A model generated the notes under the pieces. It saw only the letters and a program-made list of their open reading frames with translations, did no database searches and was not told the origin of the DNA. The position numbers and the translations under genes were made by a program. This document shows positions 13,020 to 61,277 of a DNA stretch of 64,000 bases, piece after piece (position 1 is the first letter of the stretch; each line of letters opens with the position of its first letter). This stretch comes from Cladocopium goreaui (taxonomy: Eukaryota; Sar; Dinophyceae; Suessiales; Symbiodiniaceae): positions 62,001 to 126,000 of the forward strand of contig CAMXCT020000501.1 in the NCBI GenBank assembly GCA_947184155.2. Direction: 5' to 3'.

Positions 13020-14400
13020 GATGTGGTTGGGGTTGGTGGTGGTTGTGGTGTTGGTGGTGTTGGTGGTGTTGGTGGTGCTGGTGGTGTTGGTGTTGTTGGT
13101 GTTGTTGGTATTGGTGTTGTTGGTGTTGTTGGTGGTGGTAGTGTTTCTGGTGTTGTTAGTGTTGTTAGTGTTGTTAGTGTTGTTGGTGTGGTTGGGTTTG
13201 TTGGTGGTGTTGGTGTTGTTGGTCGTGTTGTTGGTGTTGGTATTGTTCGTGTTCGTGTTGTTGTTGTTGTTGTTGCTGTTGTTGTTGCTGTTGTTGTGTT
13301 GTTGTCTGTTGTTGCTGCTGCTGCTGTTGATGGTGTTGTTGTGTGCTGTGTTGATGTGTTGTTGTTGTTGTTGTTGTGTGTTGTTGTGTGTTGTTGTGTG
13401 TTGTTGTGTGTTGTTGTGTGTTGTTGTGTGTTGTTGTGTGTTGTTGTGTGTTGTTGTGTTGTTGTGTGTTGTTGTGTGTTGTTGTGTGTTGTTGTGTGTT
13501 GTTGTGTGTTGTTGTGTGTTGTTGTGTGTTGTTGTGTGTTGTTGTGTGTTGTTGTGTGTGGTTGTGTGTTGTTGTGTGTTGTTGTGTGTTGTTGTGTGTT
13601 GTTGTGTGTTGTTGTGTGTTGTTGTGTGTTGTTGTGTGTTGTTGTGTGTTGTTGTGTGTTGTTGTGTGTTGTGTGTTGTTGTGTGTTGTTGTGTGTTGTT
13701 GTGTGTTGTTGTGTGTTGTTGTGTGTTGTTGTGTGTTGTTGTGTGTTGTTGTGTGTTGTTGTGTGTTGTTGTGTGTTGTTGTGTGTTGTTGTGTGTTGTG
13801 GTGTGTTGTTGTTGTGGTGTGTTGTTGTGTGTTGTTGTGTGTTGTGTGTGTTGTGTGTTGTTGTGTGTTGTTGTGTGTTGTTGTGTGTGTGTTGTGGTGT
13901 GTTGTGGTGTGTTGTTGTGTTGTTTGTGTTGTTGTGTGTGTTGTTGTGTGTTGTTGTGTGTTGTTGTGTGTTGTTGTGTGTTGTTGTTGTGTTGTTGTTG
14001 TTGTGTGTTGTGTGTGTTGTTGTGTGTTGTTGTGTGTTGTGGCGTTGTTGCGTTGTTGTGTTGTTGTTGCGTGTGTTGTTGTGTGTTGTTGTGTGTTGTG
14101 GTGTGTTGTTGTGTGTTGTTGTGTGTGTGTTGTTGTGTGTGGTTGTGTGTGTTGTGTGTGTGTGTGTGTGTTGTGTGTGTGTTGTGTGTGTTGTGTGTGT
14201 TGTGTGTGTTGTGTGTGTGTTGTGTGTTTTGTGTGTTGTGTGTTGTGCGTTGTGCGTTGTGCGTTGTGCGTTGTGCATTGTGCGTTGTGCGTTGTGCATT
14301 GTGCGTTGTGTGTTGGTGTTGTTGTTGTTGTTGTTGTCGTCGTTGTTGTTGTTGTTGCTGTTGCTGTTGCTGTTGGTGTTGTTGTTGTTGGTGTTGGTGT
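13020..14400. repeat. TTGTTGTGTG minisatellite, 1.38 kb
   Basis: The core from about 13,375 to 14,130 is a 10-bp unit, TTGTTGTGTG, flanked by TTGGTGGTG and TTG/TGTG variants and CGTTGTG at the right. The plus strand is almost wholly G and T. The unit has no stop codon on either strand in any phase, which yields spurious frames of 438-569 codons rich in Cys/Val/Leu or Thr/His/Asn. Confidence 0.96.
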
Positions 14401-17400: not shown

Positions 17401-17504
17401 TACCCTCTGGTAAACTAACATAGCTATTGAAAATGGCAATTTATAGTTGATTTTCCCAATAAAACTGGTGATTTTCCATAGTTATGTTAGTTTACCAGAG
17501 GGTA
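17401..17504. repeat. Foldback family 1 copy
   Basis: 104 bp, nearly perfect arms TACCCTCTGGTAAACTAACA / TGTTAGTTTACCAGAGGGTA. Confidence 0.92.
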
Positions 17505-23708: not shown

Positions 23709-23735
23709 CTTACCATAGGCACGGCCATACGGTCC

Positions 23736-24355: not shown

Positions 24356-24463
24356 TACCCTCTGGTAATTTAACATAACTTTTGAAAATGGCCATAGAAA
24401 TAGTTGATTTACCCATTAAACATGGTTATTTTCCATAGCAATGTGGCTGTTTACCAGAGGGTA
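24356..24463. repeat. Foldback family 1 copy
   Basis: 108 bp, arms TACCCTCTGGTAATTTAACA / TGTGGCTGTTTACCAGAGGGTA (tip intact). Confidence 0.88.
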
Positions 24464-38749: not shown

Positions 38750-38894
38750 CTCCAGGGCTACAGCCCTTGAGAATGTAGGGCATCCCATCTCCACTGCAGG
38801 CAGTGACGTTCACCGCACAGCCGCCATATTTGCACTTCGCAGAGACGCTAAAACTGGGCCGTTCCAGGGAATAGACCGTGAGGTCATACGCCTC
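38750..38894 (-). CDS. U8 alpha exon, opening a further delta module
   Basis: 145 bp, entry phase 0, exit phase 1. It encodes E-A-Y-D-L-T-V-Y-S-L-E-R-P-S-F-S-V-S-A-K then C-K-Y-G-G, N-V-T-A-C and P-Y-I-L-K-G-C-S-P. Acceptor cccag|GAG, donor GGAG|GTGATC. It is the last module exon recognised; the second half of the module it opens was not found below 38.7 kb. Confidence 0.82.
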
Positions 38895-41800
38895 CTGGGA
38901 TGGTGACCCCCAGATGACCCATCTGGGCCGGTTTTTTTGGTCTTCTGTTAAAGAGGTATCACGGTATCACTTCAATTTACTTAACTACAGTAGGCAAGAT
39001 TCCATGGTATGTTTTTGGATTTTCAAAACCCGGCAGTCAATACAATAGTTCCTGTGGGCATCCTTGTTATCGAAGTATATGTAGCATCCTCTTGTGTCTG
39101 ACCCTTTTCCAAGCAGTGGTGGAGAATGATTTTGTTGAATACTCATATGGTCCGATCCACAAAAGCCCTCCATTGGTTGCTCACTTTTCCTCTGAGAATG
39201 CCTATGAGGACGAAGGCAATTTGGCCCTGTACAAAGCTCACGCTGCATTTTGGGCCTTCCCCCTGTGGTTGTCCATTTTAGGCCCTTGGAACTGCAGATG
39301 GGCCATGTCTAGTACCGGTACCCTCCAGAAGACCATCCAGCAAATGGCTGGAAAATCCCATGGAAAATCGATGAACATCCAGCATTTGCAGATCATTCCC
39401 AAGAAAAACCAGGGATTCATTCGTGTTCGTTGGATACCCAATTTCGACCCATTCCCATGTCTCCCTTCCTCCCCGGCGCCTTCTCAGCCTCCCCTGGTTC
39501 AGCGCAGACCTCTGGACTGCAGCCACTCAAGGAGTAGGTCTCCTTGGTAGCCCCGGGCATGGCTGACATGTGATATCTTGTCATTTAACGTCTAAAAAAT
39601 GGGGGGATACAATGGGATACATGTGTATTTACAATTTCTGTGGGTTCTCAATCTGCTGTCACTTAGAAATTGGAAAGACGGTATACACTTTGATCTGCCA
39701 GAATTGAGGCTTGTCCCGTTATCCCATTCTCAAACAAAGCCAGATGGCCCCTGGGCGCTGGAGGTATCAGGTCCGGCCGCCTTGACGTCAGTGGTATCAG
39801 TGCTCTTCAGAGCAAAGCATGCTGTGCTAGCCGCCGCTTGTCAAGAAAGCGCAGGGCATTTCGGAACACCAAATCCACTGGTTAGTTATGCTTAGTCACT
39901 CCTAATTTTCCCTTTGAAAACTGCCATATTTTTTATGGCATATCCGGATATCCCCAAGTTTCAGACAGCAAAAAGGTGATATTGCCCAAAAAATTGATCC
40001 GGGATGTTGTCCACCTGCCCACAAAAATGAAGTTTCTGGTCATTCTTAGGAGCTTAACAGAGATTTACAGAGCTTCACCTGCTCATCATCCAATGTCAGG
40101 AGTATCAAGTGACTTGACCCATACCCATCTGAACCCTTTCATTCTGTGTAACACCTGGGGCTGTGAATTGCGTACAGAACAAGCGTCTTTGGACGCTGAC
40201 TTGACTTTCGGGGGTACAACCACTTCCAGTGACTGGAGCCTGAAATCCAACCATTCTTTCTCAGAGAAACAACACAAATTCCCACGACCTGGGCTGGATG
40301 GGGATGGAATTCCTACAGATTGGCTGGTCATTTGCAGCCTCTTTCGAAAAAAACGTGCCCATTGGTGGAATATGTCCCAGCTAGTGTTTGAGAAGCGGAG
40401 GGCACTCAGATGATATCCCCACATCATCATTATCCCCACAATATCCAATGAAATCACCATTTTCATGCTGCTTAAACCACGATGTGTCACTATTTAAACG
40501 ATGCTTCACCATCTTAAATCATCCCCAGCCTATGCGCACCACCTTGCCCAGGGGCGTTGTTGCTCTTGCACTTCGTCACCTCCGCTACGCCTGAAGCTGG
40601 TAGATATGCTTGTCATGTCATGTCGAGAGGGAATTAAAATAATCAAACATCCCATATCTTCCACTAGTAATGATAAGTGAAAGTGATGATGGTGTGCAAT
40701 TTCATGATACCATGAACTGATAATTTCCAATCATGTTCCATGGTATCATAAATTCCCTCCCCTAAATCGTGTTTCCATGTTTCCACACACTTTCCGCCAC
40801 GTTCCCATCCCCAGCCTTTGTATCCCTCGGCACACTTGGCGTGGATGGTGAAGTTTTCGATCTTCTTGTTGGCTTCAAACCTCGGCCATGGCGCCTGTCG
40901 GCCCCGCATCCGGGTGAAACCAAAAGTGGCCCCCCCTCAGCGATCAATCCATCGCCGCAGAAGCAAATTGGACAATCAAATCCAAAATCATCAAATCATC
41001 ATGGATGTTCTCCACAATTTGCAAATCATGAATCATCAATTGTTCACATTTCAGAACGGCTTAATCATGATGATGAAGAGAAATGTTTTTTTTGAAAGGC
41101 TTAATTGGTTAATTAATCATCATGAATCATCGTGAATCTTATGGTGTTTTTCACATTTCAGAAAGGGTACCCTCTGGTAATTTAACATAGCTATTGAAAA
41201 TGGCCCATTTATAGCTGATGTACCTGTTAAAAATGGTGATTTTCCATAGTTATGTAAACGTTTACCAGAGGGTAAAAATCATCGAACATCGAACGGTCGA
41301 AGTCCGAGCAACACCACATAGCCGGCTTCGGCTTGGGCTCTGGGAGAAGTGCAGGAGCCCAGGTAGCAGCCCTCCAAGGTGTAGGTCCCTCCGTCCTGGC
41401 CCCATGGAAACATGAGGGAAACATGAGGGACATATTGGGAAAATGATGGGAAATTTTCTGGGAAAATATTGGTAAAATATTGGTAAAATATTGGGAAAAT
41501 ATTGGTAAAATATTGGTAAAATATTGGGAAAATATTGGGAAAATATTGGTAAAATATTGGGAAAATATTGGGAAAATATTGGGAAAATATTGGGAAAATA
41601 TTGGGAAAATATTGGGAAAATATTGGGAAAATATTGGGAAAATATTGGGAAAATATTGGGAAACTATTGGGAAAATATTGGTAAAATATTGGTAAAATAT
41701 TGGGAAAATATTGGGAAAATATTGGGAAAATATTGGGAAAATATTGGGAAAATATTGGGAAAATATTGGGAAAATATTGGGAAACTATTGGGAAAATATT

Positions 41801-44800
41801 GGGAAAATATTGGGAAAATATTGGGAAAATATTGGGAAAATATTGGGAAAATATTGGGAAAATATTGGGAAAATATTGGGAAAATATTGGGAAAATGATG
41901 AACTTAAGTGGGTTCTTTGAGTTTTTGGAAACATCGGATTTTGGATTTCGAAACCAAAAAATGAGCGAGAGAGGGGTGATGCCACTTCAGACCTGATCCA
42001 GCTCCAACATACCATCGGAGAATGGGTATATGGATCCCGCTGAACCAAGGTGAACCCAGATGCATCCACTGATTCCACTGTCACTTGCACACAATGCCCC
42101 AGTCCCCAGTGGTTTCTTTCTGATTTAAACACCCCAAGTCTTGCATGGACCTCGAAAAATCCATGTTGTGAGCCGTCCTCCCACTCTCCATAATTGCTGG
42201 GTTCCATTTTGCTACTTTGGCTTCAGCATCTCCAGGGATGCATCTTTAATTTCTCTTCATGTTTGGTGTTCTTTCAGGCATTCATCAGTTCCATGCATCC
42301 AAAATGAATGCTCTTCCCACTTCTCCAGATTTTGTGTTTGTTTGAAAATAGGGGTTGATCATCATGTTCTGCATCAAAATAGCTGCAACAGATAGATCCG
42401 AATCCATCCAAATCCATCCAAATCCATCCAAATCCATCCAAATCCATCCAAATCCATCCAAATCCATTATTCATCAGGTTGAATCGCTTTGTTTCATGAT
42501 TACACCCCCCATACTTGTTCATTAAACCTCCATATTTCCCATATTTCCCATCCGTAAATCCACCATTTTTCCACCATCCACACCTCGGTACAGGGCACTG
42601 CTCTGCCATAGCCCCCCGTGAAGCGACAGGCCGCTGTGATGCTGAAGCCCGGCCGCTCGGTACTGTAGATGGTGAGGTTGTAGGCTTCCTGACCGCGAAA
42701 ATGTCGGACATAACTCATGAGGTTTTTACCGATCATCATAATGATGATGATAATGATAATAAAAGTAATTAATAATGATAATAGTAATCTATAGTCACCA
42801 TCCCCGAGTTTGAGTTTTATGAAATGGGTTTTTTTCCGCGGTTTTTTTTCGGCGGTATACCGTATTAATACCCCTTTCTGAATGGGATGATTTTTCATAG
42901 GACCCCCGATGTTGGTTTTCATGGGAAGGTAGAAATTGTTGGTTGTTGGATGTACGGTTCAACGGTGGATTTCAAGGACAAAACTAAGGGGATCCAGAAC
43001 TGGAGTTGGCCAGGGCTTCACCATGTTTCAGCTGGCGGAAAGGATGGAAACATGTATTTTTTTCAGCGCCGAAAAAACGCAACGGGGGAAACACTGAAAA
43101 AGTGCGAGAAAAAAGGGGGAAACCATTTATAGATGATTGTCCCATTAAAAGCTCCATTTATCATGGATTTTCCATGGCTACGTGAAATAACCAGAGGGTA
43201 ATTTGACCAGAAACACATCGGGCAAAAATTTGATTTGACCAAAACATCATTGGCTCTGGTTGACCTATACAATTGGCCATTCACCATTCAGCCCCATCCC
43301 TGAATTTATTGTTTAGGTGGGGAGGATCTAATCTCAGCGGAAGTTCTCTGATGTTCCTGACGAATCACCAAAGATTTTGATGACCTCACCTTGTTCCAGG
43401 ATCACAACTGCAATCATGTCCATTGAAGGATCATTTTCAATGGCTAATCAAGGATAGAGGGTAACATCCTCAAACATGAACACCCCCAAAAGAGGACCTC
43501 CAAAATACTGTGAAGTATCTTGACAAATTGAACTGTAGCACCAGGTTAACAAGAAATACAACTTATATACATGATATAACAATGTTTGACAAGAAACAAG
43601 TATGTACCGCGAATCCAATGTTTCATCATCATTTTCCCCATTGAAACTGCCTTTGTTGGGTATATCGGTATACCCCTTTTTTTTGGAACTAATTCTGAGC
43701 AAAGCCATAAGACAAAGCGACCCATGATGGCCCAAATGTACCAAAGCGCAAAATCACAATGGCAGAAAATGGAGACTTGAAACGAGACGAGGTAAATCAC
43801 CCGGCTAACTCAAAAACGAAGTGCCAGGCTCTTCTCCATTTTGGGTTGATACTCATCTCCAACCCTCCCAATTTATCCCCCTTTTGCGCCTTTTCAGCCT
43901 CGCTTGGCTCCAGGCATTTCTCGGGTTTGCAGCCGCTCAACTTGTATTCCTCTCCGTGTCCCGAGCACTCCTGCCATGTGCGTCCGCGTCAGGAATCTTC
44001 AGGCGTTTCACCAAACAAAAAGTGGGACATTTAATTTGTAGTGGGGCATGACTGCTGATCACATTCCATGACATATCACATCAAAACTCATATAATATAT
44101 ACATACAGTATCTAATTATATTATTATTATTATTGTTATTATTATTATTGTTATTGTTATTGTTATTGTTGTTATTATTATTATTGTTATTATTATTATT
44201 AATTATTATTATTATGTATTGTTATTATTATGTATTATTATTAGTATTAGTATTATTATTAGTATTATTATTTTTATTATTATTATATATATATATATTG
44301 TATCTATATCCCAATTATGTATTAAAAACATGTGGCATCACGGGTGATGTCTATGTTCCCATGACAGGCCCACGGCACCTCAGCGCATGGTTTTGGGGGT
44401 GTTCGCCCCCTCGATATAGAGGAAATTGCAACCAGGATTATATATATATATATGTATATTTATATTAACATTAGATAAGTGACATCAACTAACTCTATAA
44501 AACTTGGTTTCCTGAAATCTTAATTTTTCCCTTCCGTCAATCCCCTCAGCTCATCGTGCCGTTGCTCCTCAACCACTGCCACGCCGCGGTAGCCATCGGC
44601 GCACTGGGCGGACACGTTGAAGGTGCCCAAGCGTCGGTTGGCCTCGTACCTTTTCACGGAGAAATGAGGAATTCACGACGAATGGAAGAATGGTGTTTTG
44701 GAAAATTGAGATTTAATTGGTTTTGGATGGCGGAGAAACCTCAGAACTTTTTTATGGTGATTTGAGATGAAGGATTTGAGCGACAAAAATCCATGGATTC

Positions 44801-47800
44801 AACCAACATGGGGGAGTTCAGCAGAAAACATGTGGGGTTTCACGGTTTCACCAACCAAATCTGAGCTTTGGAGTGGCGTTTCTTTGTCGATGATTTCAAC
44901 CAGAATGGTAATGTCCAGGCATCTGTTTCCCCTCCCATTATGAATTCTGGAGATCAGCATTTCTTGGGAAAGGGTTCGGGAAGTAGCAAGTACCTGTCGC
45001 AGACTTGTGTTCAGTACTAAACAGACTATCCAATTTTGGAGTACCCAAGTTTGAACCACACCATTTCTGTCACTTGTAGGCACCGTTTGGACCATTTCTG
45101 TGTAGCTACAAGCTGCTGATCCTATGAATTCAGAGGCAATATCCAACAAAGGATAGGGTCGGAGAGGGTTCCTTCCGTCTAGAGTGTGGGGTCAACAACG
45201 ACAAGTCGACAAGTCACACAACATAGCCGGCATCCAATTTCGCCTTGTCCTAGGCTCACGGCTTCGACAGGTCGCCCGGCTGTTGCTTAAAGGCTGCAAG
45301 ACTGAAACGAGTCGATTTATGGATCTGAACTAGCATAAGGTACCTGTTTGAACCAAATGAGCCCAGATTTTTTGGTCATGTTCAGTGATGCTATAATTCT
45401 GAGCCATATCCAAATGAATATATGCGAGATTTACAGAGATTTACCGCACCTTTAATCAGTCACGGAGGTAGCGCCAGGTGGCCAAAATCCACGCAAATTT
45501 GCCGTTGTTCTCAGATGCTCTCAGTACGATTTTCTCAACTTGGGTCTATCATGGTCTATCCACCATGTACATTAATTGATGATGGGACAAAAACATGTTC
45601 CCCTGGTGAACATTAAAATTATGTGGGATGTCCAGATGTTGCAAAATCCAGAGTTCAGCTTGCGGAAAGAAGAAAAGAGACGACTCTCTAGGTTTGCTTT
45701 CTCGCAGCTAAATGCATCAATCTAGAACAAAAAGATACGACTTTGTCATTTGCTGGATGTTCATGCCCCAATTGTTGTCGTATTGCTTCTGACTCAGTTC
45801 CAAGCAACTCTAAGATCAGCACCAACTGCCATCCTCCAGTTATCTTTACTCCCATCCACCCACCCCATCCCATCCCAACCCCCAACCCACCCATCCCAAC
45901 CTCCCCCAACCTGTCGAGGTTCCGGTGCCTTGCACTCGCCCAGGGGACAGCCCCGCAGCGTAAACGGCTCCTGGTCCGCCTTGCAGGGCACCGCCTGGCC
46001 AAAGAGGTGCGGCGCAAAGGCGCACTGCGCGGTGACGCTGAACTTGGGACGTTGCAGGGAGTAGACCGTGAGGTTGTAAGCCTGGCAGAAAACGGCGGAA
46101 AACCATGGTGATCTTAGTGATCTTAGTCTTTTTTTTGGGACTGTGAATATTTAAATGGGATTCTAGTTCTTAGAAATGGTCGATGGATTTTGATGGATTT
46201 TGTGCGGCTGGGACAATGAAAATGGCGAATGAGATGGGTTTGGGACCTGAAGATTTAGGGATAAGACCCCAAACCCAATGGTATATCATGATATTCCTTT
46301 TTCAATACAAAGCCGTATGATAATTCATGGTCGTCGGGATCTTCAAATGGTAGTTGTTTCACCTGCCAAAACTGGAGAGCTGGCCATTCATCAACCAAAA
46401 ATTTGGAGCAAAAAACCTGTGGAGTCCTGTTGCGGTGAAGACTGCTGGTTCCATCGTGAGATTTAAATCTCAGATATACAAATGGGGAGTCTTCCATTCA
46501 TGGGGTGTTTCAGCTCCAAAAAGAAAATGTGTAGATTGACCCTTGGCAAAATGCAGGGATAGAAAAAAAACGAAAGGTAGTGCGAGTGGACAGAAACCTG
46601 GCCGTTGAGGACAGCACAGGGTCTGGGTCAAAATAGACAAAGAAAACTGCATGCGGTTGAATTAATAAAATATCCGTAAAGTGACCTGAACCACTGCGTT
46701 TTGGATGGTCTGGAATTTGGACTCGTACCTATTTGTGGCACTTCGCATTCCATTGTCCCTCACTGCAAAATAAGAGGATCATGCGCTGGCTCAGCCCCTT
46801 CAAGTCCCCTTATCCTATCTGCTTGGCAGACAGGAGCTGCAACTATCGTAAGGGCTTCCCCGCAGCATCTGCATGGCCCAATGTCAGTACCAGAGGTCTG
46901 GGCAGCTCCACCTCTGAATACTTCTTGCTGGGAACGGTGCAGTTTCCAGGGAAGCAGCCACTCAGTTGATACCTTGACGCAGCCCGGGCAGGCGGGGTCC
47001 CGCGTCACTCTCTCGGTCGATCCAATTTTGAGGTCGCTTTAGACTACATCCAAAAAGGGACACCCAGCTTCAAATATGTGCATAGGATAGAACTGAAATA
47101 ACTAGATATAACACTATCTATATATATATATTATATGGTCAAGGTGCGGCTCCCCAGGCTCCTTGCACATAGACACCTGCGCCACCCCTTCATAGGCGTC
47201 TCCACACGTGGCCGTCACGTCGAAACGGGTCATCAGCTTGTTGCCCTCATACCTCGGGTTTTTTCTCTGCGGGGCCACAAGGAACCAACATCTTGGTGCA
47301 TTTCATAGATTTCAGGCGGGAAAAGACAGGAAACCTGCAGCTTCTATGGTTCCCCGGAAAAACTCAGGCCAGGCTGGAATTTGGCAAAGAATCATGCCAG
47401 AATTCTTGTCAGGGGTGAAATAGAGAGTGGAAGGCTAGATTCGTGATGATCCGTGTGTTTGTTCGTTTGTTTCCAGCTTCATTTCCACATAGAACCCGAA
47501 AACAAAGCATCTTCTGCATCAGCATCACCCAGTGCCGGCCATTGAAATAGGGTTCCTCACATCTATGTTTATATCACCTTTGGGGGAAGTGTTACCACCA
47601 TTTCAGGACAAAAAACAACTGATACTTTGATTTTAACATATTTTAAACAGGAAAAACATGGGAGAAAATCTCTGGTGTGAAGCCCGAACTGAGGCGTTTC
47701 AAACGCGGCCAAGATTCACCATGTAGCCATCCTCGGCCTCTTTGTGTGGAGAGGTGCAGCTAGCAGGATAACATCCTTCCAGGGTGTAGGTGTCTCCATC

Positions 47801-53800: not shown

Positions 53801-56800
53801 TGGATATAGTGGGTTCAAAAGAATCAGTGGGGCAGTTGGGCATTCTTTTCTGATGTCCTATTTCTAGTGCTTGCTGGCTCTTCCAATGGGAAGATCTTTT
53901 GGGACAGGATCCAAAGGCTGCATTGACGGCAACAGAAGCCACGAATGGTTGGCCTCACTCTTTCGCAAAGCACCAAAACTTTGGGATGTAGGCATTGGTC
54001 CAAACCAATGATCCCCCATGGAATAAAACATCAACCAAGATTCTCTCTTGGATTCATGTCACCCCGGCAACCTTTTGACACACAAATCAGAAATTGCTGG
54101 AGGGATGGTAACTGGCACCACCTCAGATCCAGGAAACGCCCGGCGGTGGCTCCTCCCTTCTGGCACTTCTGCACCACCGCCTTGCCATGATAGCCCTCCG
54201 CACACTGCGCCACAACATCGAAATCGGCCCAGGAGAGAAAGGACTCGTACCTGAGGCAGTGGTGATGGCTGTCCCAAGATCACTCAATGATGCTGGAAAA
54301 TCTTGGACAATTGTTGAGCCCCTTGTGCCAGGCCCTTAGGGCCTTTGGGGTGTTGCACACCTTGGGGCCTGACGTTGAAATATGTTGAAATTATATGAGG
54401 TGTGGACCAAAACGCCAGGGAGTTGTGGATACGCAGAAATGAGATGGTCCCAGGGCCCATGAAATGCGCAATGAATTTGCCTTCAAGCTGCATGTTGGTT
54501 GGCATATCTCCCTGATTCTGTTTCACTTTATTCCTGAGTTTCGCGGGGTTCTTGCCTCACCAATCGATCTTTTTCCTAATCTTCACCAAGCTGCACCACG
54601 TAGCCATGCTCCACGCTCTTGCGTGGGGAGAGGCAGGCCTGAGGCTTGCAGCCGCTCACGTGAAAGGCTTGGCCATGCACGCGACAGGGCTCCACCTTCG
54701 GGCGACCCTCGCCACTTTTGCAGCTGGCCGAGACGTCGAAGCTGGGGAGCTGCAAGGATTTCCTGAGGCCATCAGGGCCATCAGCCAGTTCGAAGCTGGG
54801 GGACCGGCCATCGATGTGAAAAGAAAACAGGGGTCCACACCTTCCACTCAGAGGTTCAGAAAGATGCGTTTTCAGGTCTTAGAATGTCGAAATGGTTTGG
54901 TGGGCTCTGAGAGCCTGGATGTGAAAGGCTTGGCACAATTTGGTGAGTCTGCATGGAAATCCACCACTTAGATCTGCCTGAAACCCATCTTGGAGATTCC
55001 CAAAGGATATCAGGATAGAGTGTGTTTCAGTACTAACTGACCATATTTTTCAGCCCTAGTTGGTCACCAATTTAGCCCCCAAGAAAAACCGCCGCCCTCT
55101 CATCGTCTCCAGGGTACACCGTGACATTGTAATCGTAGGTCTCCTCTGCTGGAGGCTCCACACACACAATTGGAGAGCAGCCGGACAAAGTGTAGCTCCC
55201 TCCTTCCTCCTCGCAGACTTCCGCCTGCCGCGGGGGTTTCTGGGACATGGAACTAGTCCAGCTACTAAACATGGGGGTGCTCCAATGCCAAGGGGAAATA
55301 ACAAGGTGACAAGGTGGGATGAAGGATGTGAAAGACTCTAGATTCCTTTCTTGCCTCAATTTCCTTTTCCTCCTGCGGATCAAGGTCTACGATGGGGGAT
55401 ACATCGTCCTTGGGTTCCCCTAACCAAAATCGACCCATCAAATGGGAAGAATCTTCAGGGTTTTCGTCCCGCCCAAATAGGTCGTTTCCTGCTTCTCCTT
55501 TCTGGTTTGTGGTTTTAACATGTTTTAACCCCCGTGAAAAAGAACATGATCACTTGGAGATCATCCTCAAATTTGCATGTGAAGCCACCAGAAACCAAAG
55601 ATCTTTCTTCATTTCAGGGTCATGAAACCTCGATGTTTTCCCTATCCTGCCTCCCCCTATTCAGGATACCCCTGGGTGCCTTGGGTTCCCCGTGGTAGCC
55701 CAGGTCGCATTCGGCTTCCACGTTGAATTCCAAAATTTCCAAGGAATCTTCCAGCCTCAGCCCCAGGTCGCGGATGGTTTCTAATCTCCTCCCCGGATCA
55801 TATTCAATTATTGAATACCACCCAGACGAAACCACAGTTTTTGTATTGGATTTATATATTGTCGGGGTATTTCATATGGAAGGGATGGGATGACAAAGTT
55901 TGAGATGACCCCATAGTGTCACCTCAAAAACTCTGGTGGTTTATGGCTTTTTCGACTCAGGTATAGCTCAAGAACTATACCAACCTTTTACCAAGCCAAG
56001 CGTTGTTCTTGACGCAGCCAGTCTGAAATGTACCAGTTCACACCCAAAAAAGCTGTGATTTATGATGATTTCTACATGTTCATCCCCAAGACAAATGGTC
56101 CCCATGGGCCCATCCCTAGCCAGGCCACAATTTGTAGCCTGTCTGGTTTGCCCGAGGCATGGTGGCACATTCCAGCGGAGCACAGCCTTCCACAGCATAG
56201 ATCTCTTCGTTCTCTTGGCAGACGGTAGCCTTGGGTTTGCCTGGTGCAAGGCTTCCGCAAATTTGGAACCCCGAAATGGTCCAAAATTGACTGCATTTGA
56301 TATTTTCAAAGCCATGACTGGGGGTCCCCCGTTCTAGGAAACCTATATTTGGGGCCCAAAATAGGGCTGGAATTCTGATGCCCCAGATAGTGCCACTTCT
56401 TTTCGGCCAGGGATCGTACGACTGGAAACCTGATCACAACTGTTGGCGAATACGGTAGCATTGAATTGGACTATTCTATCTTGTGGTTTCCATGTTTGAC
56501 CCATGCCCAATTACCCATCCAAGCACCGAAAAAGGAAAACACATGGGTGCAATATTGCTGTGGGAGGAGGAAGTACGACGAATGTTGGTCAATTGCTCAA
56601 CTTGGTCGCTTCAGTACACCAACTCTGTTCCACAGACGATTCTAATACCCCCGATCTTGAGAAATGCATCTGCATTATACAGGAATCATGCATTGTAGTA
56701 CGTATATTTGGCTTCTGCCCAAGCTCCGCCCTCCCAAAATTGATGCTCTAAAACCTCAGTTTCCCCAGTTTCCCCGAAATAACCGTAAATAGCCATCCTT

Positions 56801-59800
56801 TTTTGGTTCCAGCCATATCCCAATTCTTGGGTCCACAGGGTCGCAATCGGCCTCCTTCCCCGGCTTCCCCGGCAGGTTTGCCCTTGCATTTCAACGAGAC
56901 GTTGAAGCTTGGCACTTCCAAACTCGTCTCTGTGACCTACGGCGCTCAGTTGGGAAGCCAGCATTTCTAGGATTTTCTGCTTCAAATCATGGCATTTCCA
57001 TGGGTTTTCATCGATTTTCTGGTTCAAAATGGAAAGATCCTGTGGATGATCCCACTTTCCAGGCCAGCGACGGCATGACAGTCACATTTAGATCATAGGA
57101 AACCAGAAGAAACCAGTTCGTAGAAGCGTGACCTATCATTAGACTCATTAGACCCATTATATAATCATTACCCTCTGGTAAACTAACATAACTATGGAAA
57201 ATCACCATTTTCAATGGGTAAATCCACTATAAATCACCATGTTCAATAGCTATGTTAAATTATCAGAGGGTAGACCATCAACCAACTATCATTTCGACGT
57301 TTCGCACCCACATGTTCATTTCTGCTGGTTAAACCTCCCAGCCAAGGTGCGTGGACTCAGCAAAGGAGGCGTTGAAGACCGTTTCTTGAAGAAAAGATCC
57401 CAGCTGTTTACTTCAAAAAATATAAGTGGATATTCCCATCGTCTACACCAGCAACATTATAATATTCTATTAATATGATATATATATATATATATATGTA
57501 CATATAATTATATTAATAATAAATAATTAATAATAATAGGATATGATATGGGATATATCCTATTATAATATATTATATATAATACAATAGGATGAGATAA
57601 GATACATATTGGATATCCATCCACCACCAACCCATTCTTTAACGACGCTGGGTGCATCGCTTACCTCGTAGGCATGGAGGCTCTTCGCGCTGGGTGCTGT
57701 GCATTTCTTGGGCGTGCAGCCGCTGAGGCTGTAGTCGTAGCCGCCCTTGGGGCACACGCTGGCCTTCGCCCGGCCCATGTAACCTGGGCCAAAAAAAAGG
57801 TGGCAAAATGGGGATGGAAAGCCACGCAAAAGCAGTTCACCCAGAAAAATGCTGGAATGTGGACTTTCACCGAAAATGCCGGTTGAATGGGACATTAGTA
57901 TATTATATATATATATATTAATGTGATACCCTGTGGAAAATTGTGACTTAGCTATGGTATAGATGGCCCATTGAGTTTGATGATTTACCCATCAAACTGG
58001 GGATTTTCCATAGCAATGTGAAATTACCAGAGGGCATAATCCAAGGATGGTGAGCTTCAGTGTGTTGCAATCCCTCATATCATCCCAATTCAGAATCGTG
58101 GAGTTTCACCACCAAAAATGTGGATCTCATCCATACATGATGGTTGGTCGTTGGTGATGGTTGGTCGTTGGTGATTGAGCCATTGAAAAATAAATGCATT
58201 CAACGAACAAGAATGGGAATGGGGACTTAAATGGCACGAAAAAATTGGGGGACTAAACCAGAAATGGTGGTGAAATACGGGTAGTACGTGGTGATACCAT
58301 GTAATACCACTCATCATGTTCCCCTTTTTCGGGGGGGCATACCGATCTATCCAATTCTTGGACTGCCTGTCCTCGACATCCATTCAATCCATTCATGCGA
58401 TGTGAAAATTCGGCAGTTCCACCGGGAGACCAACCCAGGCCCCACCGGGCACTAGACCTGACTTGGACTGTTAACTCAGTTGACCCAGTGATTTTGGTAT
58501 TCGAAAGCTTCAAGTAGTTTAGTTCAACAACGACCAGAGACTTGTCTGAAAAAATGAGGATTGAGAAAAATGATGATACCAAAAGCTTCAGAAAGTCTCT
58601 GGTCCTGAAATGATTTCGTCCAGCGACCTTCCTGACAGCTGGCAGTGACCTTGAACTCCTTGGGGTTCAAAGAATCTTCGACCCTCGGTACGGCGGCCCT
58701 GTGGCATTCTGAGCTGCCAGCCATTGACATTCGCCTCTGGTAATTTATGACACAGCTATTTTTCAAATCACCATTATAACTTTTATAACCATCATTTCAT
58801 GGGTAAATCATCATTGTTCTCATCTGTTTCTATCATGGTTTCCATAGCTATGGGGTCCTCTTCAACCCCTTGGGCCATGGGATTTTGGGCCGGTTTTCAG
58901 GCCGAGGCGGCCAAGGTACACCACGTAGCCCGTGTCTTGGGCCTTGGTGGATGACAGGCATGGAATCGGCACGCAGCCGGAGAGCGTGAAGGGCTCACCA
59001 TCTGCGGCACACTCCGTAGCCAGGCCTGCCAGCTGGTTTCCATCAATGGGGTTCGATAAGGGGGTTATAATGGAAAATCCTACTCAATGGAGATTATATG
59101 AATTTCCTACAATTATATACTGTAATAATATAATTTTGGTGAAAATAATGTGGGGGGGTCCATAGTCATGGGGGGTACCCCAATAGCTGGTTGGCATATT
59201 TCATGGAAAATCCGAACATAAAATGGATGATAACTGCGGGTACCCCCATTTCAGGAAACCTCCATGTGAAAGCAGTTTTCAAAGCATGAACATGTCGAAG
59301 ATTGTGAATGACCATCGGCTGGGGAAGTGTGTGATAGGTTGATTCTTTTTTGACCCAGCTGTCCGAAAATTTTGGGTCGGGCACAGACTGGACTACTCTG
59401 GCTTCAGTGGTACATCGTGACTGTTCTACCTATGAATTTGGAGATATGACTACTATGTCTGCCCATAATTTTATGTACTCAAGCAAGCAGCAACTGTTTC
59501 GTATGGTTTCAATATCTCTGGCTTACCTGCAAATTCTGATACTCAACTGGAAATGATAAAGATATCGCCCCAAGTACAAAAAAACTTGAAAAGCTATTGG
59601 GATCAGGGACTCACACTCTTCGTTTCTCTGAAAAATTGATCAAACTCGGGGCTCTCCCGGCCTTGACCCTCGCCACTCTTGCACTTCACCAACACGCTAA
59701 AGCTGGGTTTGAACAAGCTCTGGGGAACATAGTCGTAGTCATAGGCCGCCTGTGGTGTGCGGCTTCGATGATTTTGATCATCCGCTTTGGTCATGTGTAG

Positions 59801-61277
59801 AATACCCATAGTGATCATGAAGAAACATGTAGTGTTGGTAAAACAATCATAAACCATCCCCAAAATCACCATAAATAGGTGGTATAAACCATTCCCAAAT
59901 GGGTGGTTTATTAATCCCTTCCTCCTAATACTAAACCCCCCCCCTAATACAAAACACGGCAAGTAGTTTTTAGTATTAGGGGGGTATTTATTATTAGGGA
60001 ACCAAAATATTGCCAAAAATGGCAGTTCGAAGCTTACCCCTAATACTAAATTAAAACCCTTAATAATAAAAACCATTTTTTCCGATCTCAAAATCAATTA
60101 AATTTCCTTATATAACGCAATTAAAATATTGCCAAAAATGGCAGTTCGAAGCTTACCCCTAATACTAAATTAAAACCCTTAATACTAAAAACTATTTTTT
60201 CCGATCTCAAAATCAATTAAATTTCCTTATATAACGCAATTAAAATATTGCCAAAAATGGCAGTTCGAAGCTTACCCCTAATACTAAATTAAAACCCTTA
60301 ATACTAAAAACTATTTTTTCCGATCTCAAAATCAATTAAATTTCCTTATATAACGCAATTAAAATATTGCCAAAAATGGCAGTTCGAAGCTTACCCCTAA
60401 TACTAAATTAAAACCCTTAATACTAAAAACTATTTTTTCCGATCTCAAAATCAATTAAATTTCCTTATATAACGCAATTAAAATATTGCCAAAAATGGCA
60501 GTTCGAAGCTTACCCCTAATACTAAATTAAAACCCTTAATACTAAAAACTATTTTTTCCGATCTCAAAATCAATTAAATTTCCTTATATAACGCAATTAA
60601 AATATTGCCAAAAATGGCAGTTCGAAGCTTACCCCTAATTGCTAGAGTAGCCAGGCAGCTTGGAGTGAGGGATTGGGACTAGGCCCCCCTAATACTAAAC
60701 ACCCCGGGGTGAACTAGTTTTTAGTATTAGGGGGGAGAACCCACAAATGGTAGGTTGATTTTTAAATTGTTTTTTAAAGGGGATCAATTAAAAGTCAAAT
60801 TGGCCAAACTGAAATTTTCGGAAATTGGAGATGGATGCCTGTTTTTAGTATTAGGGGGACGTTTAGTATTAGGAGGAAGGGATTATTGTTTTAACCACAT
60901 TACACCAACCCTGGTTGGAAAATGATGGGAAGGCTGGGGAAGAATTGACAACACAATAATGACACCAGCAGCTTTCCTATAGAGCTTGCAGCTTGATCTC
61001 TGACCAGTCGGTATCTGTAAAGCAAAGCCTTCGCCGCGGAAGTTTTCCATGGCAATTGGGATGACATGTTGTTGCTTGGCCTTTTCCCTCCACTAAAACG
61101 ACCACATTAAACATCATTAAACATTAAAATGACCAAGAACATCATTAAACATCATTAAACATCATTAAACAATCACAATTTCTGCGGCGAAAAACTCAGA
61201 CCTAGCCTCAGCGCTGGGCAAGGTGCAGGTAGTAGGAACGCAGCCCGTCAAGGTGTAAGGCACATCCTTCTCAGTGC
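38750..61277 (-). CDS. Large multi-exon gene for a cysteine-rich tandem-module protein (31 exons reconstructed)
   Basis: Reading the minus strand, short GC-rich exons encode one module type again and again: Y-x-L-x-G-C-x-P-x-x-C-x-x-P, a short spacer often ending G-Y-V-V, then F-x-V-x-x-x-C, often A-E-G-Y-x-G, then a fourth Cys before the next module. Four Cys per roughly 55-60 residues recalls small disulphide-bonded extracellular modules (sushi/CCP or EGF-like), but the invariant Trp of sushi is absent, so no family is claimed. Two alternating module versions make a four-exon cycle (delta, gamma, beta, alpha in transcription order), numbered here as units U1 to U8. Joined exons total about 2.7 kb of coding sequence in 22.5 kb. 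Reading phases agree at every resolved junction. The product is probably extracellular or lumenal (inference from Cys content). The start and the stop are not identified; the last exon ends in the opening of a further module. Confidence 0.8.
39480..39542 (-). CDS. U8 beta exon
   Basis: 63 bp, 21 residues, phases 0 and 0. It encodes E-T-Y-S-L-S-G-C-S-P-E-V-C-A-E-P-G-E-A-E plus K. Acceptor ccaag|GAG, donor AAG|GCGCCG (GC type), as in U7 beta. Confidence 0.83.
40538..40590 (-). CDS. U8 gamma exon, second part
   Basis: 53 bp, entry phase 1, exit phase 0. It encodes V-A-E-V-T-K-C-K-S-N-N-A-P-G-Q-G-G and provides the Cys that the first part lacks. Acceptor ttcag|GC, donor GGT|GCGCAT (GC type). Confidence 0.72.
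40816..40880 (-). CDS. U8 gamma exon, first part
   Basis: 65 bp, entry phase 2, exit phase 1. It encodes F-E-A-N-K-K-I-E-N-F-T-I-H-A-K-C then A-E-G-Y-K. Acceptor ccgag|G, donor AAAG|GCTGGG (GC type). In the other units the Gly-x-Ala-x-Val part follows without an intron or at another position. Confidence 0.82.
41168..41274. repeat. Foldback family 1 copy
   Basis: 107 bp, arms TACCCTCTGGTAATTTAACA and TGTAAACGTTTACCAGAGGGTA tip, 39 bp from the U8 delta exon. Confidence 0.9.
41313..41395 (-). CDS. U8 delta exon
   Basis: 83 bp, entry phase 0, exit phase 2. It encodes D-G-G-T-Y-T-L-E-G-C-Y-L-G-S-C-T-S-P and ends A-G-Y-V-V. Acceptor gccag|GAC, donor GTGGT|GTTGCTCGG. Confidence 0.84.
41466..41895. 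repeat. 11-bp minisatellite ATTGGGAAAAT
   Basis: About 39 near-perfect copies, with a few T-for-G and C-for-A variants. Because 11 is not a multiple of three, all frames give the same 11-residue cycle, producing open frames up to 124 codons that are not genes. It lies in the intron between U7 alpha and U8 delta. Confidence 0.93.
42400..42467. repeat. 10-bp array TCCATCCAAA
   Basis: Seven copies of AATCCATCCA in the same intron as the 11-bp minisatellite. Confidence 0.9.
42584..42688 (-). CDS. U7 alpha exon
   Basis: 105 bp, 35 residues, phases 0 and 0. It encodes E-A-Y-N-L-T-I-Y-S-T-E-R-P-G-F-S-I-T-A-A then C-R-F-T-G-G-Y-G-R-A-V-P-C-T-E. Acceptor gtcag|GAA, donor GAG|GTGTGG. Confidence 0.85.
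43120..43200. repeat. Foldback family 1, left end eroded
   Basis: Right arm ends TGAAATAACCAGAGGGTA; the matching left tip is absent. Confidence 0.65.
43890..43970 (-). CDS. U7 beta exon
   Basis: 81 bp, 27 residues, phases 0 and 0. It encodes E-C-S-G-H-G-E-E-Y-K-L-S-G-C-K-P-E-K-C then L-E-P-S-E-A-E-K. Acceptor ggcag|GAG, donor AAG|GCGCAA (GC type). Confidence 0.84.
44109..44290. repeat. ATT trinucleotide array
   Basis: Imperfect (ATT)n with G interruptions, followed by a short TA run; intron of U7. Confidence 0.9.
44568..44649 (-). CDS. U7 gamma exon
   Basis: 82 bp, 27 residues, entry phase 2, exit phase 0. It encodes Y-E-A-N-R-R-L-G-T-F-N-V-S-A-Q-C then A-D-G-Y-R-G-V-A-V-V-E. Acceptor aaaag|G, donor GAG|GAGCAA (GA type) by spacing against U4 and U8. 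Confidence 0.83.
45218..45249 (-). CDS. U7 delta micro-exon
   Basis: 32 bp. It encodes D-K-A-K-L-D-A-G-Y-V plus two bases of the last Val codon, between cctag|GAC and GTTGT|GTGACTTGT. Both phases fit its neighbours and it supplies the G-Y-V-V ending of the delta module, matching the corresponding part of U8 delta. Upstream in this frame lie stop codons, so it cannot be part of a longer exon. Confidence 0.72.
45847..45909. repeat. CCCATCC-rich tract next to an exon donor
   Basis: CCCATCCACCCACCCCATCC-like C-rich tract (G-rich on the transcribed sense) lying within the first 65 bases of the intron after the donor at 45,911. Confidence 0.7.
45911..46081 (-). CDS. Fused U6 alpha and start of U7 delta exon
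   Basis: 171 bp, 57 residues, phases 0 and 0. It encodes A-Y-N-L-T-V-Y-S-L-Q-R-P-K-F-S-V-T-A-Q-C, then F-G-Q-A-V-P-C, then P-F-T-L-R-G-C-P-L-G-E-C-K-A-P. Acceptor gccag|GCT, donor CAG|GTTGGG. The delta module is interrupted and completed by a 32-bp micro-exon. Confidence 0.85.
46912..46972 (-). CDS. U6 beta exon
   Basis: 61 bp, 20 residues, entry phase 2, exit phase 0. It encodes Y-Q-L-S-G-C-F-P-G-N-C-T-V-P-S-K-K-Y-S-E. Acceptor tcaag|G, donor GAG|GTGGAG. Confidence 0.82.
47160..47252 (-). CDS. U6 gamma exon
   Basis: 93 bp, 30 complete codons, entry phase 2, exit phase 2. It encodes Y-E-G-N-K-L-M-T-R-F-D-V-T-A-T-C then Y-E-G-V-A-Q-V-S-M-C-K. Acceptor cgag|G, donor AAGGA|GCCTGG (GC type). 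Confidence 0.83.
47718..47800 (-). CDS. U6 delta exon
   Basis: 83 bp, exactly the length of the U8 delta exon, entry phase 0, exit phase 2. It encodes D-G-D-T-Y-T-L-E-G-C-Y-P-A-S-C-T-S-P and ends D-G-Y-M-V. Acceptor cgcag|GAT; donor ATGGT|GAATCTTGG (GA type). Using the nearby GTGAAT instead would throw the next exon out of frame. Confidence 0.84.
48042..48163. repeat. Foldback family 1 copy
   Basis: 122 bp, left arm TACCCTCTGGTAATTAAACA, right arm ACGTTTCATTGAGGGTA with loss of the CCAGA part. Confidence 0.75.
48424..48533 (-). CDS. U5 alpha exon
   Basis: 110 bp, 36 residues, entry phase 1, exit phase 0. It encodes Y-D-L-T-E-G-S-L-E-V-P-S-F-S-V-T-T-R-C and ends A-M-P-C-T-Q. Acceptor gccag|GC, donor CAG|GAGATG (GA type), chosen by spacing against the U7 alpha exon. 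Confidence 0.82.
48948..49038 (-). CDS. U5 beta exon
   Basis: 91 bp, 30 codons plus one base, entry phase 0, exit phase 1. It encodes V-D-M-C-T-K-P-D-T-A then Y-K-L-S-G-C-R-P-M-V-C-V-A-P and E-I-E-T-Y. Acceptor ctgag|GTG, donor TATA|GCGCCT (GC type). Confidence 0.82.
49761..49836 (-). CDS. U5 gamma exon
   Basis: 76 bp, 25 residues, entry phase 2, exit phase 0. It encodes Q-E-I-S-R-T-S-D-S-F-H-V-T-A-K-C then A-E-G-Y-I-G-K-A-K. Acceptor cccag|G, donor AAG|GCGAGG (GC type); reading on instead meets a stop three codons later. Confidence 0.82.
50110..50170 (-). CDS. U5 delta exon, second part
   Basis: 61 bp, 19 complete codons, entry phase 1, exit phase 2. It encodes C-L-P-L-E-C-T-S-P-L-N-T-T and ends G-Y-V-V. 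Donor GTGGT|GTACCTCAG. Confidence 0.82.
50404..50446 (-). CDS. U5 delta exon, first part
   Basis: 43 bp, 14 codons plus one base, entry phase 0, exit phase 1. It encodes A-I-P-C-K-K-E-G-E-A-F-T-L-S. The intron splits the Gly codon of the S-G-C motif: TCAG|GCGGGG (GC donor) joins ttgcag|GC to restore S-G-C-L-P. Acceptor gtgag|GCC. Confidence 0.8.
51119..51204 (-). CDS. U4 alpha exon
   Basis: 86 bp, 28 residues, entry phase 1, exit phase 0. It encodes Y-Q-Y-H-V-Y-S-L-A-T-P-S-F-S-V-A-V-R-C. Acceptor ctgag|GA, donor AAG|GCGCCC (GC type). Confidence 0.8.
51815..51915. repeat. Foldback family 3 copy
   Basis: AGGTTGCCTGAAATGGGGTT ... CCCCAAATCATCCAAGTC ... CCCCATTTTAAGAAACCCCA. Confidence 0.7.
52378..53085. 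repeat. Imperfect direct duplication in U4 intron
   Basis: Two long copies (about 52,473-52,670 and 52,919-53,085) and a short one (52,378-52,420) share TTCT(C/T)GG(C/G)TTAGCC, a following ATAAA box, a stretch with CCAGT and CCCCCTGC, then GGTTTTAC or AGTTTTAC, TCTTCAGA or ATTCAGA, and a run of ACAC. A 117-codon plus-strand frame covers part of it, but the other copy does not keep that frame. Confidence 0.5.
53106..53211. repeat. Foldback family 1 copy
   Basis: Arms TACCCTCTGGTAAACTAACA and GTCAGCCATTACCAGAGGATA; flanked by AATA/AATA. Confidence 0.88.
53548..53596 (-). CDS. U4 beta exon, 3' edge unresolved
   Basis: Encodes G-E-P-Y-T-L-S-G-C-S-A-F-T-C-L after acceptor gccag|GA. The Pro expected after C-x-x and the segment leading to the alpha exon are missing, and none of the three possible donors (GCCCTG, GATGTA, GTAGTT) is in phase with the alpha exon at 51,204. 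A further small exon is probably hidden in the 2.3 kb between them. Confidence 0.65.
54156..54250 (-). CDS. U4 gamma exon
   Basis: 95 bp, 31 complete codons, entry phase 2, exit phase 1. It encodes Y-E-S-F-L-S-W-A-D-F-D-V-V-A-Q-C then A-E-G-Y-H-G-K-A-V-V-Q-K-C. Acceptor ctcag|G, donor AAGG|GAGGAG (GA type), fixed by the phase of the next exon. Confidence 0.82.
54595..54762 (-). CDS. Fused U3 alpha and U4 delta exon
   Basis: 168 bp, 55 complete codons, entry phase 2, exit phase 2. The first half gives L-P-S-F-D-V-S-A-S-C-K-S-G-E-G; the second gives F-H-V-S-G-C-K-P-Q-A-C-L-S-P and ends H-G-Y-V-V. Most other units carry an intron between these halves. Donor GTGGT|GCAGCTTGG (GC type); acceptor ctcag|G. 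Confidence 0.83.
55100..55224 (-). CDS. U3 beta exon
   Basis: 125 bp, 41 complete codons, entry phase 0, exit phase 2. It contains A-E-V-C-E-E-E-G-G then Y-T-L-S-G-C-S-P-I-V-C-V-E-P and E-T-Y-D-Y-N-V-T-V-Y. Acceptor ggcag|GCG, donor GATGA|GAGGGC (GA type). Confidence 0.82.
55680..55755 (-). CDS. U3 gamma exon
   Basis: 76 bp, 25 residues, entry phase 2, exit phase 0. It encodes L-E-D-S-L-E-I-L-E-F-N-V-E-A-E-C then D-L-G-Y-H-G. Acceptor gctgag|G, donor AAG|GCACCC (GC type). Confidence 0.8.
56129..56229 (-). CDS. U3 delta exon
   Basis: 101 bp, 33 complete codons, entry phase 0, exit phase 2. It contains A-T-V-C-Q-E-N then I-Y-A-V-E-G-C-A-P-L-E-C and ends G-Y-K-L. Acceptor ccaag|GCT, donor AAATT|GTGGCCTGG. 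Confidence 0.8.
56859..56936 (-). CDS. U2 alpha exon
   Basis: About 78 bp, entry phase 0. It encodes V-T-E-T-S-L-E-V-P-S-F-N-V-S-L-K-C-K-G-K. Acceptor cgtag|GTC. The 3' edge is uncertain: GGG|GAAGGA (GA) gives the expected Cys spacing, but GCC and GAAGCC donors a few bases upstream also keep the frame. Confidence 0.7.
57169..57272. repeat. Foldback family 1 copy
   Basis: 104 bp, arms TACCCTCTGGTAAACTAACA / ATGTTAAATTATCAGAGGGTA. Confidence 0.9.
57665..57783 (-). CDS. U2 beta exon
   Basis: 119 bp, 39 residues, entry phase 1, exit phase 0. It begins Y-M-G-R-A-K-A-S-V-C and continues D-Y-S-L-S-G-C-T-P-K-K-C-T-A-P. The donor GAG|GTAAGC is the most canonical in the gene. Acceptor cccag|GT. Confidence 0.82.
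57927..58038. repeat. Foldback family 1 copy
   Basis: Arms TACCCTGTGGAAAATTGTGA and TGTGAAATTACCAGAGGGCATA. Confidence 0.78.
58628..58683 (-). CDS. U2 gamma exon
   Basis: 56 bp, 18 complete codons, entry phase 2, exit phase 1. It encodes V-E-D-S-L-N-P-K-E-F-K-V-T-A-S-C-Q-E. Acceptor ccgag|G, donor GAAG|GTCGCT. Unlike the other gamma exons it stops right after the Cys; the Gly-Tyr segment is completed by the next exon. Confidence 0.78.
58734..58858. repeat. Foldback family 1 copy, decayed right arm
   Basis: Left arm CCTCTGGTAATTTATGACAC; right arm ends near TTCCATAGCTATGG without the tip. Confidence 0.6.
58920..59025 (-). CDS. U2 delta exon
   Basis: 106 bp, entry phase 1, exit phase 2. It encodes the module opening P-F-T-L-S-G-C-V-P-I-P-C and ends in D-T-G-Y-V-V. 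Acceptor ggcag|GC. Donor GTGGT|GTACCTTGG, one of seven homologous delta-gamma donors. Confidence 0.82.
59165..59265. repeat. Foldback family 3 copy
   Basis: Begins at ATGGGGGGTACCCCAATAGC and ends at GGGTACCCCCATTTCAGGAA plus ACCTCCA; internal GGAAAATCC shared with the 9.7-kb copy. Related half-copies lie at 7,060-7,112 and 19,300-19,395. Confidence 0.65.
59662..59749 (-). CDS. U1 alpha exon
   Basis: 88 bp, 29 residues plus one base, entry phase 0. It contains A-A-Y-D-Y-D-Y followed by K-P-S-F-S-V-L-V-K-C-K-S-G-E-G-Q. Acceptor cacag|GCG. Donor CAAG|GCCGGG (GC type), chosen because it keeps the Cys spacing seen in the U3 alpha exon. Confidence 0.8.
59912..60885. mobile_element. 974-bp terminal-inverted-repeat element with internal tandem array
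   Basis: The ends are exact inverted repeats of at least 24 bp: TAATCCCTTCCTCCTAATAC at 59,912 and its complement GTATTAGGAGGAAGGGATTA ending at 60,885. Flanks allow a TA or ATT target duplication. Inside are five full copies of a 119-bp unit and secondary inverted copies of the motif CCCCTAATACTAAA. No open frame for a transposase is present, so it is a non-autonomous MITE-like element lying in an intron of the module gene. Confidence 0.75.
60003..60639. repeat. 119-bp tandem array
   Basis: The unit, containing AAATATTGCCAAAAATGGC and TTCGAAGCTTACCCCTAAT, starts at about 60,122, 60,241, 60,360, 60,479 and 60,598, with a diverged copy before. The copies are almost identical, so the expansion is recent or homogenised. 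Confidence 0.9.
61207..61277 (-). CDS. U1 beta exon
   Basis: 71 bp, 23 residues, entry phase 1, exit phase 0. It carries Y-T-L-T-G-C-V-P-T-T-C-T-L-P-S-A-E. The acceptor is cgag|GC; the donor is inferred as GAG|GCTAGG (GC type) because this joins in frame to the next exon exactly as in U7 and U8. Matching U1 delta and gamma exons were not found upstream. Confidence 0.78.

Follow-up and report, generated by a model that had tools for sequence, protein, structure and literature searches.

The 64,000-nucleotide window analyzed here, a stretch of the genome of the dinoflagellate Cladocopium goreaui, contains on its minus strand a gene, hereafter the array gene, for which we modeled at least 31 small exons between positions 61277 and 38750. 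The final model holds 887 open codons in 31 exons, arranged in two in-frame blocks of 363 and 524 amino acids; a first model, in which exons were joined by hand at G[T/C/A]...AG sites, had 880 amino acids and no stops. The encoded protein consists of 15 tandem modules with four cysteines each (C1 to C4), modules of class A (encoded by gamma and beta exons) alternating with those of class B (encoded by alpha and delta exons). The exon motifs named by an earlier note on this DNA are present along this span of the minus strand, as is the roughly eightfold repetition that it described, the window containing 8 copies each of beta, alpha and delta (the final delta being incomplete) and 7 of gamma, or about 7.5 cycles.

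From the 5' end (all exons on the minus strand, window coordinates), the model begins with b1 (beta; 61207..61277), which holds the C4 tail of a preceding module and then the C1 start of B1, followed by a1 (alpha, B1; 59668..59749), d1 (delta; 58920..59025), which carries the end of B1 and the start of A2 and ends in GYVV, and g1 (gamma, A2; 58628..58683). Exon b2 (57665..57783) spans the end of A2 and the start of B3, a2 (B3; 56882..56936) was found by profile outside the training set described below, d2 (56129..56240) joins the end of B3 to the start of A4, and g2 (A4; 55680..55755) leads to b3 (55118..55224; A4 end, B5 start). Alpha and delta then form a single exon, ad3 (54595..54762; B5, A6 start), before g3 (A6; 54156..54250) and b4 (53553..53596; A6 end, C1 of B7), the latter also found by profile outside the training set. 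Between b4 (53553) and a4 (alpha, B7; 51119..51204) a further exon of some 25 bases was expected, and none of 134 candidates was convincing. The next delta is split into d4a (50404..50446), the third exon found by profile outside the training set, and d4b (50110..50170; A8 start), after which come g4 (A8; 49761..49836), b5 (48948..49038; A8 end, B9 start), a5 (B9; 48424..48533), d5 (47718..47800; B9 end, A10 start), g5 (A10; 47151..47252) and b6 (46912..46972; A10 end, B11 start). Exon ad6 (45911..46081; B11, A12 start) combines alpha with most of delta, the 32-base end of which, d6b (45218..45249; GYVV), is below profile length and was placed by eye. The array proceeds with g6 (A12; 44568..44649), b7 (43890..43970; A12 end, B13 start), a7 (B13; 42584..42688), d7 (41313..41395; B13 end, A14 start), g7 (A14; 40816..40880), the 35-base g7b (40556..40590), b8 (39480..39542; A14 end, B15 start) and ad8 (38750..38894; alpha and part of delta, B15), which carries the last module in the window.

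Exon g7b was identified by module spacing together with a coding score that, trained on the exons of the first model, indicated a further stretch containing it. This exon supplies the missing C3 of A14, the spacing of which becomes 29-13-12, and with it A14 scores 81.6 bits, instead of 57.7, against a profile built from the remaining A modules. The exon order of the earlier note thus holds in general but not strictly, since alpha and delta (or most of delta) share one exon in three of the eight cycles (ad3, ad6 and ad8), delta is split in two cases (d4a/d4b and ad6/d6b) and the extra exon g7b comes after one gamma. As part of the explanation that we favor overall, the array gene would continue past the modeled exons, the 31 exons being part of a very long, intron-rich gene.

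The cysteine layout of the modules is regular. Of the 14 complete modules, 12 have a distance of 29 residues from C1 to C2 and the other two have 30 and 34; the distance from C3 to C4 is 11-12 throughout, and C2 and C3 are 13 residues apart in all seven A modules and 9-15 in those of class B; the fifteenth module, B7, is without its start, and B15 carries a fifth cysteine. Neighboring modules are joined as GC-x4-C, namely by a linker of four residues. Sequence identity is 44% between A modules and 43% between B modules versus 32% between classes (31% for adjacent A-B pairs), and the difference within versus between classes is reached by 2 of 5000 label shuffles. The alternation of two classes, each module resembling its counterparts more than its neighbors, is therefore as the earlier note had it, and the separation of beta-type from delta-type modules that it predicted is recovered in the A/B split of the module tree (ultrafast bootstrap 91, or 88 with the revised module set). 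Trees and alignments A1, A4 and A6 leave out the incomplete B7, and alignment A3 is without both B7 and A14; alignment A1, in which A14 is without its C3 exon, is the basis of the tree with bootstrap 91 and, in the following section, of the hhalign score of 22.34, the first PDB search and the 14-module consensus ranking.

Resemblance of the module to CCP domains

The earlier note had matched the module to no named domain, and neither did the databases: Pfam returned no match at its cut-off for the protein, for the modules (including all those of a set of 30) or for five paralogous open frames, and NCBIfam returned none for the spliced protein. Specifically, neither the protein nor any of the 30 modules matched the CCP/sushi family PF00084, and the same was true of all 15 scored candidates in the organism's own genome, in which the control likewise matched nowhere. 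No close relatives were found by tblastn among the contigs of IMG/VR and GTDB (1 and 32 pattern stretches), and no title or abstract start names such an array among the matches listed for the open-access literature on dinoflagellates or Symbiodinium.

CCP domains have a beta-sandwich fold with disulfides C1-C3 and C2-C4 and a conserved Trp between C3 and C4. Nine complete CCP domains of known structure, taken from CR1, CR2 and factor H, show 28-32 residues between C1 and C2, followed by spacings of 14-13 in five domains, 20-17 in three and 14-17 in one. The modules conform to a spacing near 29-14-13, their three distances being 29 (in 12 of 14 modules), 9-15 and 11-12. When the module profile was compared by hhalign with 16 CCP domains of the same three proteins, 49 columns were aligned with C1, C2 and C3 each in register with its equivalent. 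The score for 14 modules with A14 lacking its C3 exon was 22.34 (probability 53%), reached by none of 200 shuffles with fixed cysteines and none of 200 full column shuffles; it was 19.27 (probability 25%) for 14 modules after the revision of A14, and 22.38 (probability 55%) for 30 modules, the latter reached by 1 of 300 shuffles with fixed cysteines and none of 300 full shuffles. A search of the PDB with the 14-module profile retrieved two sequences at E<=10, both of complement receptor 2 (E 0.64 and 4.6, not significant). Also not significant were the matches of the A-only profile, to two Rieske proteins and to MASP-1 (the latter, as we read it, in a different region of the module), and those of the B-only profile, to four unrelated proteins (LM1841, SuhB twice and an antibody); the 30-module profile had no match in the PDB. 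The predicted structure of exon ad6 with 22 other exons of the window is of low confidence (pLDDT 65.6), and the fold search with it gave no match.

The Trp of CCP domains is absent, the single Trp of the 887 residues lying between C1 and C2 of A6. Moreover, the ranking of module profiles against single consensus sequences depends on the module set: with 14 modules CCP is first of 14 (18.7 over 50 columns, EGF scoring 15.1 over 18), and with 30 modules EGF is first of 12 (19.9 over 18 columns, CCP scoring 16.8 over 49). Our sequence comparisons therefore suggest, rather than prove, that CCP/sushi is the closest full-length resemblance of the module, with an EGF fragment competing locally. Given the missing Trp, the non-significant PDB matches and the competition of EGF, we call the module CCP-like in layout, its membership of the family being unproven.

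It is possible, albeit somewhat doubtful, that the module is instead a dinoflagellate-specific disulfide domain unrelated to CCP, in which similar cysteine spacing was reached independently. The lack of any match in Pfam at cut-off or in NCBIfam for the spliced protein, the absence of significant PDB matches even with 30 diverse modules, the missing Trp and the higher score of the EGF consensus on the C2-C3 stretch than of the CCP consensus over the whole module are what such a domain would produce, but an independent origin accounts less well for a full-length, in-register similarity to CCP that beats nearly all column shuffles, and for linkers as short as four residues, compared with about 3-8 in CR1, CR2 and factor H.

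Coding character and growth of the array

Profiles of exon halves were trained on 29 pieces, 14 of gamma/alpha type and 15 of beta/delta type. In leave-one-out analysis all 29 pieces (12.4-43.7 bits) scored above the best match outside the minus-strand span of the gene (5.0-7.7 bits), which argues that the recurrence of the motifs is not due to chance, and the three copies outside the training set were recovered at 24.0, 22.1 and 14.8 bits. Stretches above 14 bits, 15 of gamma/alpha type and 17 of beta/delta type, occur exclusively on the minus strand, within 38748-61287. Of the best 45 matches per profile, the top one outside the gene region scores 6.3 bits, and within this region the other strand reaches 7.0 bits.

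Exons of the first model have 59% GC (GC3 73%) and introns 42%, and coding composition, as measured by the coding score, is mostly confined to exons. In 42 within-class pairs of modules, dN is lower than dS in all 34 for which both could be computed (median dN 0.63; median dS 1.44, near saturation). Mean lengths are 86 bases for exons and 604 bases for the 29 introns. Donors are GC in 13, GT in 12 and GA in 4 of 29 cases and a G comes after the AG at each of the 30 acceptors, counts that give no independent evidence because the sites were picked by eye for frame and homology. A decaying tandem array or pseudogene, instead of an expressed gene, would be in line with the failure to find the expected small exon between b4 and a4, the ends of the gene, or any module across the approximately 40 kb (part of which reads N) to a second array on the same contig; we consider it improbable nonetheless in view of 887 codons without stops or frameshifts, the consistently lower dN, the confinement of coding composition and, with the reservation just made, the uniform acceptors.

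The introns of the array gene bear on how it grew. The intron between delta and gamma is in phase 2 and interrupts the corresponding codon in all seven copies, and this junction recurs in the second array of the contig, as read from two ends of delta and two starts of gamma. The beta-alpha, alpha-delta and gamma-beta introns vary both in the residue at which they lie and in phase (0, 1 or 2), and some are missing altogether; for instance, the seven beta-alpha introns that can be placed fall at six distinct sites and include all three phases, as drawn from splice sites chosen by eye. The exon assignment of each cysteine is independent of the choice of splice sites, and C3 belongs to the gamma exon for A6 and A10, to the beta exon for A2, A4, A8 and A12, and to a separate exon for A14. 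Whereas the earlier note envisaged repeated duplication of a two-module, four-exon unit, only the first attribute of this unit stands: the two alternating classes indicate duplication of a two-module block, with the common phase-2 intron in seven of seven copies, and no four-exon unit was copied as such because the other three classes of intron sit at differing places.

The simplest reading of the intron pattern is that a gamma-beta-alpha-delta block with symmetric phase-2 ends would have been duplicated in tandem through phase-2 introns, with further introns entering afterwards at differing places; alternatively, introns may have been lost from an ancestor richer in them. Dinoflagellates are known for intron gain through introners (PMC11453091). 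Direct repeats as a mark of insertion were set aside, the signal being too weak and partly a product of choosing sites by eye: their mean length is 3.5 bases in the 22 introns not ending at gamma versus 3.0 when mispaired (14 of 2000 shuffles), and 1.4 versus 1.7 bases in the seven introns ending at gamma. The possibility that introns are copies of each other was also rejected, as the similarities listed reflect a short palindromic element inside introns and not whole introns. Under the reading of block duplication followed by intron addition, the array gene is a natural record of array growth, in which one common and three differing intron positions allow duplication to be separated from later intron change.

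Several other elements were observed in the window. Palindromic, MITE-like elements of about 100 bases lie at 5364-5467, 9087-9190, 17402-17503, 24357-24462, 41169-41273, 53107-53210 and 57170-57271, with ends like ACCCTCTGGTAA (21 end matches with <=1 mismatch in the window versus 0.14 expected); three of them sit in introns of the array gene and align with one another in both orientations. The intron between a7 and d7 contains 42 copies of the 11-base unit ATATTGGGAAA (41432-41896), and that between b1 and a1 has 5.3 copies of a 119-base unit with 99% matches (60004-60639), apparently a very young satellite. A GT-rich, low-complexity array of 1.35 kb that is open in several frames occupies 13044-14394, and a 1215-codon open frame matching the reverse transcriptase family PF07727 (RVT_2, E 2.7e-11) on the minus strand at 20091-23735 belongs to a retrotransposon, presumably of copia type, far outside the array gene.

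Related loci in the genome

Searches of the genome (1,165,616,438 bases in 6202 contigs) gave at least 43 matches with a three-module query (E<=10) and at least 29 with a single module from contig C2256 (E<=1), the array gene itself included. Seven contigs had matches at E<=0.01 in either search, namely C501 (the contig of the array gene), C924, C5936, C2256, C6000, C2183 and C979. These contig counts are lower bounds, which leave out C4401 (E 8.2, with two stops) and C5908, the latter supported by profile (31.7 and 27.2 bits) but with E 0.16 and 0.32 in the genome searches. On C501 itself a second set of gamma, beta, alpha and delta exons lies at about 162.5-168.1 kb on the same strand, approximately 40 kb upstream of b1, and could be either the 5' part of the same gene or a neighboring gene. 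On C924, 11 modules (spacing 26/27-13-12) follow one another without introns before a stretch of N, and the higher-order repeat there comprises three modules (X/Y/Z) compared with the two-module A/B repeat of the array gene. Two near-identical module loci about 33 kb apart on C2256 (L039 and L040) represent a recent duplication or an assembly copy, and on C5936 (L038:4915-5253, minus strand) an A-like and a B-like module lie side by side in one open stretch.

When 16 modules from other loci were added to the tree (alignment A6, which leaves out two near-duplicate C924 modules, the second C2256 copy and partial modules), the B modules formed a clade with one C5936 module (support 89) and the A modules mixed with those of other loci, although many inner supports are low. 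Because of this topology, A looks like the general module type and B like a derived one; since it is the second C5936 module that groups with the B modules of the window, the two-module unit may predate the array gene.

Taken together, these loci probably represent a large family of extracellular four-cysteine modules that has no name as yet and is spread over seven or more contigs, with differing higher-order repeats and with introns that record both the copying of the array and its later interruption by new introns, be it a new domain or an offshoot of CCP. Many dinoflagellates are coral symbionts, and their surface proteins are difficult to investigate wherever domain databases miss them; with the module defined, a profile that works and the loci listed, this family becomes open to testing.

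Predicted protein and comparison with known systems

The modeled protein contains 12 N-x-S/T sequons in 887 residues, a fourfold excess over the 2.8 expected that none of 2000 shuffles reached, and 7% cysteine beside its one Trp. It has no strongly hydrophobic segment (the highest 19-residue mean is 0.86), and neither a signal peptide nor a membrane segment was seen in the modeled 887 residues, the gene ends lying outside the model. Such features fit a secreted protein, or an ectodomain region in the modeled part, which we infer rather than observe because both ends of the gene are unseen. Each module would be a small bead stapled by disulfides, with pairs C1-C3 and C2-C4 predicted after those of CCP domains, and the modules probably belong to a secreted protein shaped like beads on a chain; given such beads and four-residue linkers, the protein should be a rod, which would display two alternating faces, A and B. 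Hence the explanation that we find the most convincing overall, and hold with reasonable though limited confidence, is that of a gene of dinoflagellate type whose product would be secreted and N-glycosylated and would comprise 15 or more tandem four-cysteine modules, CCP-like in layout. Its putative steps are splicing as drawn, secretion, a CCP-like fold and a rod shape; more tentatively than any of these, the protein might serve adhesion or recognition, either on the cell surface or within an extracellular coat.

EGF-like repeats have six cysteines in about 40 residues, and the modules do not show this pattern, having four (five in B15). Below the Pfam cut-off, the C924 array gave weak rows for EGF_PEAR1L (4.3e-4), DUF6501 (1.4e-3) and three others above 0.5, including cEGF (0.79), and cEGF also appeared at 0.14 on one of 30 modules. 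It is nevertheless very unlikely that the module is a degenerate EGF-like repeat with its C..GY.G....C stretch as the EGF C-terminal loop, despite these sub-cut-off rows and the EGF consensus score of 19.85 with the 30-module profile, since that consensus match extends over 18 out of about 55 columns and the modules have their four cysteines within about 55 residues, 29 of them between C1 and C2. The likeness is limited to that local stretch, EGF being also shorter and differently spaced.

The structure of the array gene fits that of Symbiodiniaceae genes. We found no match to the relict spliced leader in the window at <=3 mismatches (the 5' end of the gene is outside the model), a point of difference, although to our knowledge such a relict is not expected in every dinoflagellate gene. 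The likeness extends to GT, GC and GA donors, exons of about 100 bases, introns of about 500-600 bases and a genome GC of about 44%, which is also approximately that of the window. In published accounts, GC/GA-AG introns constitute 25-74% in Symbiodiniaceae (PMC11453091), and S. minutum has 43.5% GC, GT, GC and GA donors, a mean exon of 101.7 bases and a mean intron of 516.6 bases (PMC5177918).

With the CCP/sushi domains of PF00084, as in CR1, CR2 and factor H, the modules have in common a length of about 55-60 residues, four cysteines with similar spacing, short linkers, an arrangement in tandem arrays and a core of F/Y.V.x.C..GY..G....C in register. They differ in having Y.LSGC in place of the Trp before C4, a conserved G-Y-x-V after C1 and scores below the Pfam cut-off. 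Among alveolates, the apicomplexan proteins CpTSP2 and PgTSP2 are likewise large surface proteins with sushi among their annotated domains; in these proteins, however, sushi is combined with Notch and TSP1 (PMC9250747), whereas the array gene presents one type of module only.
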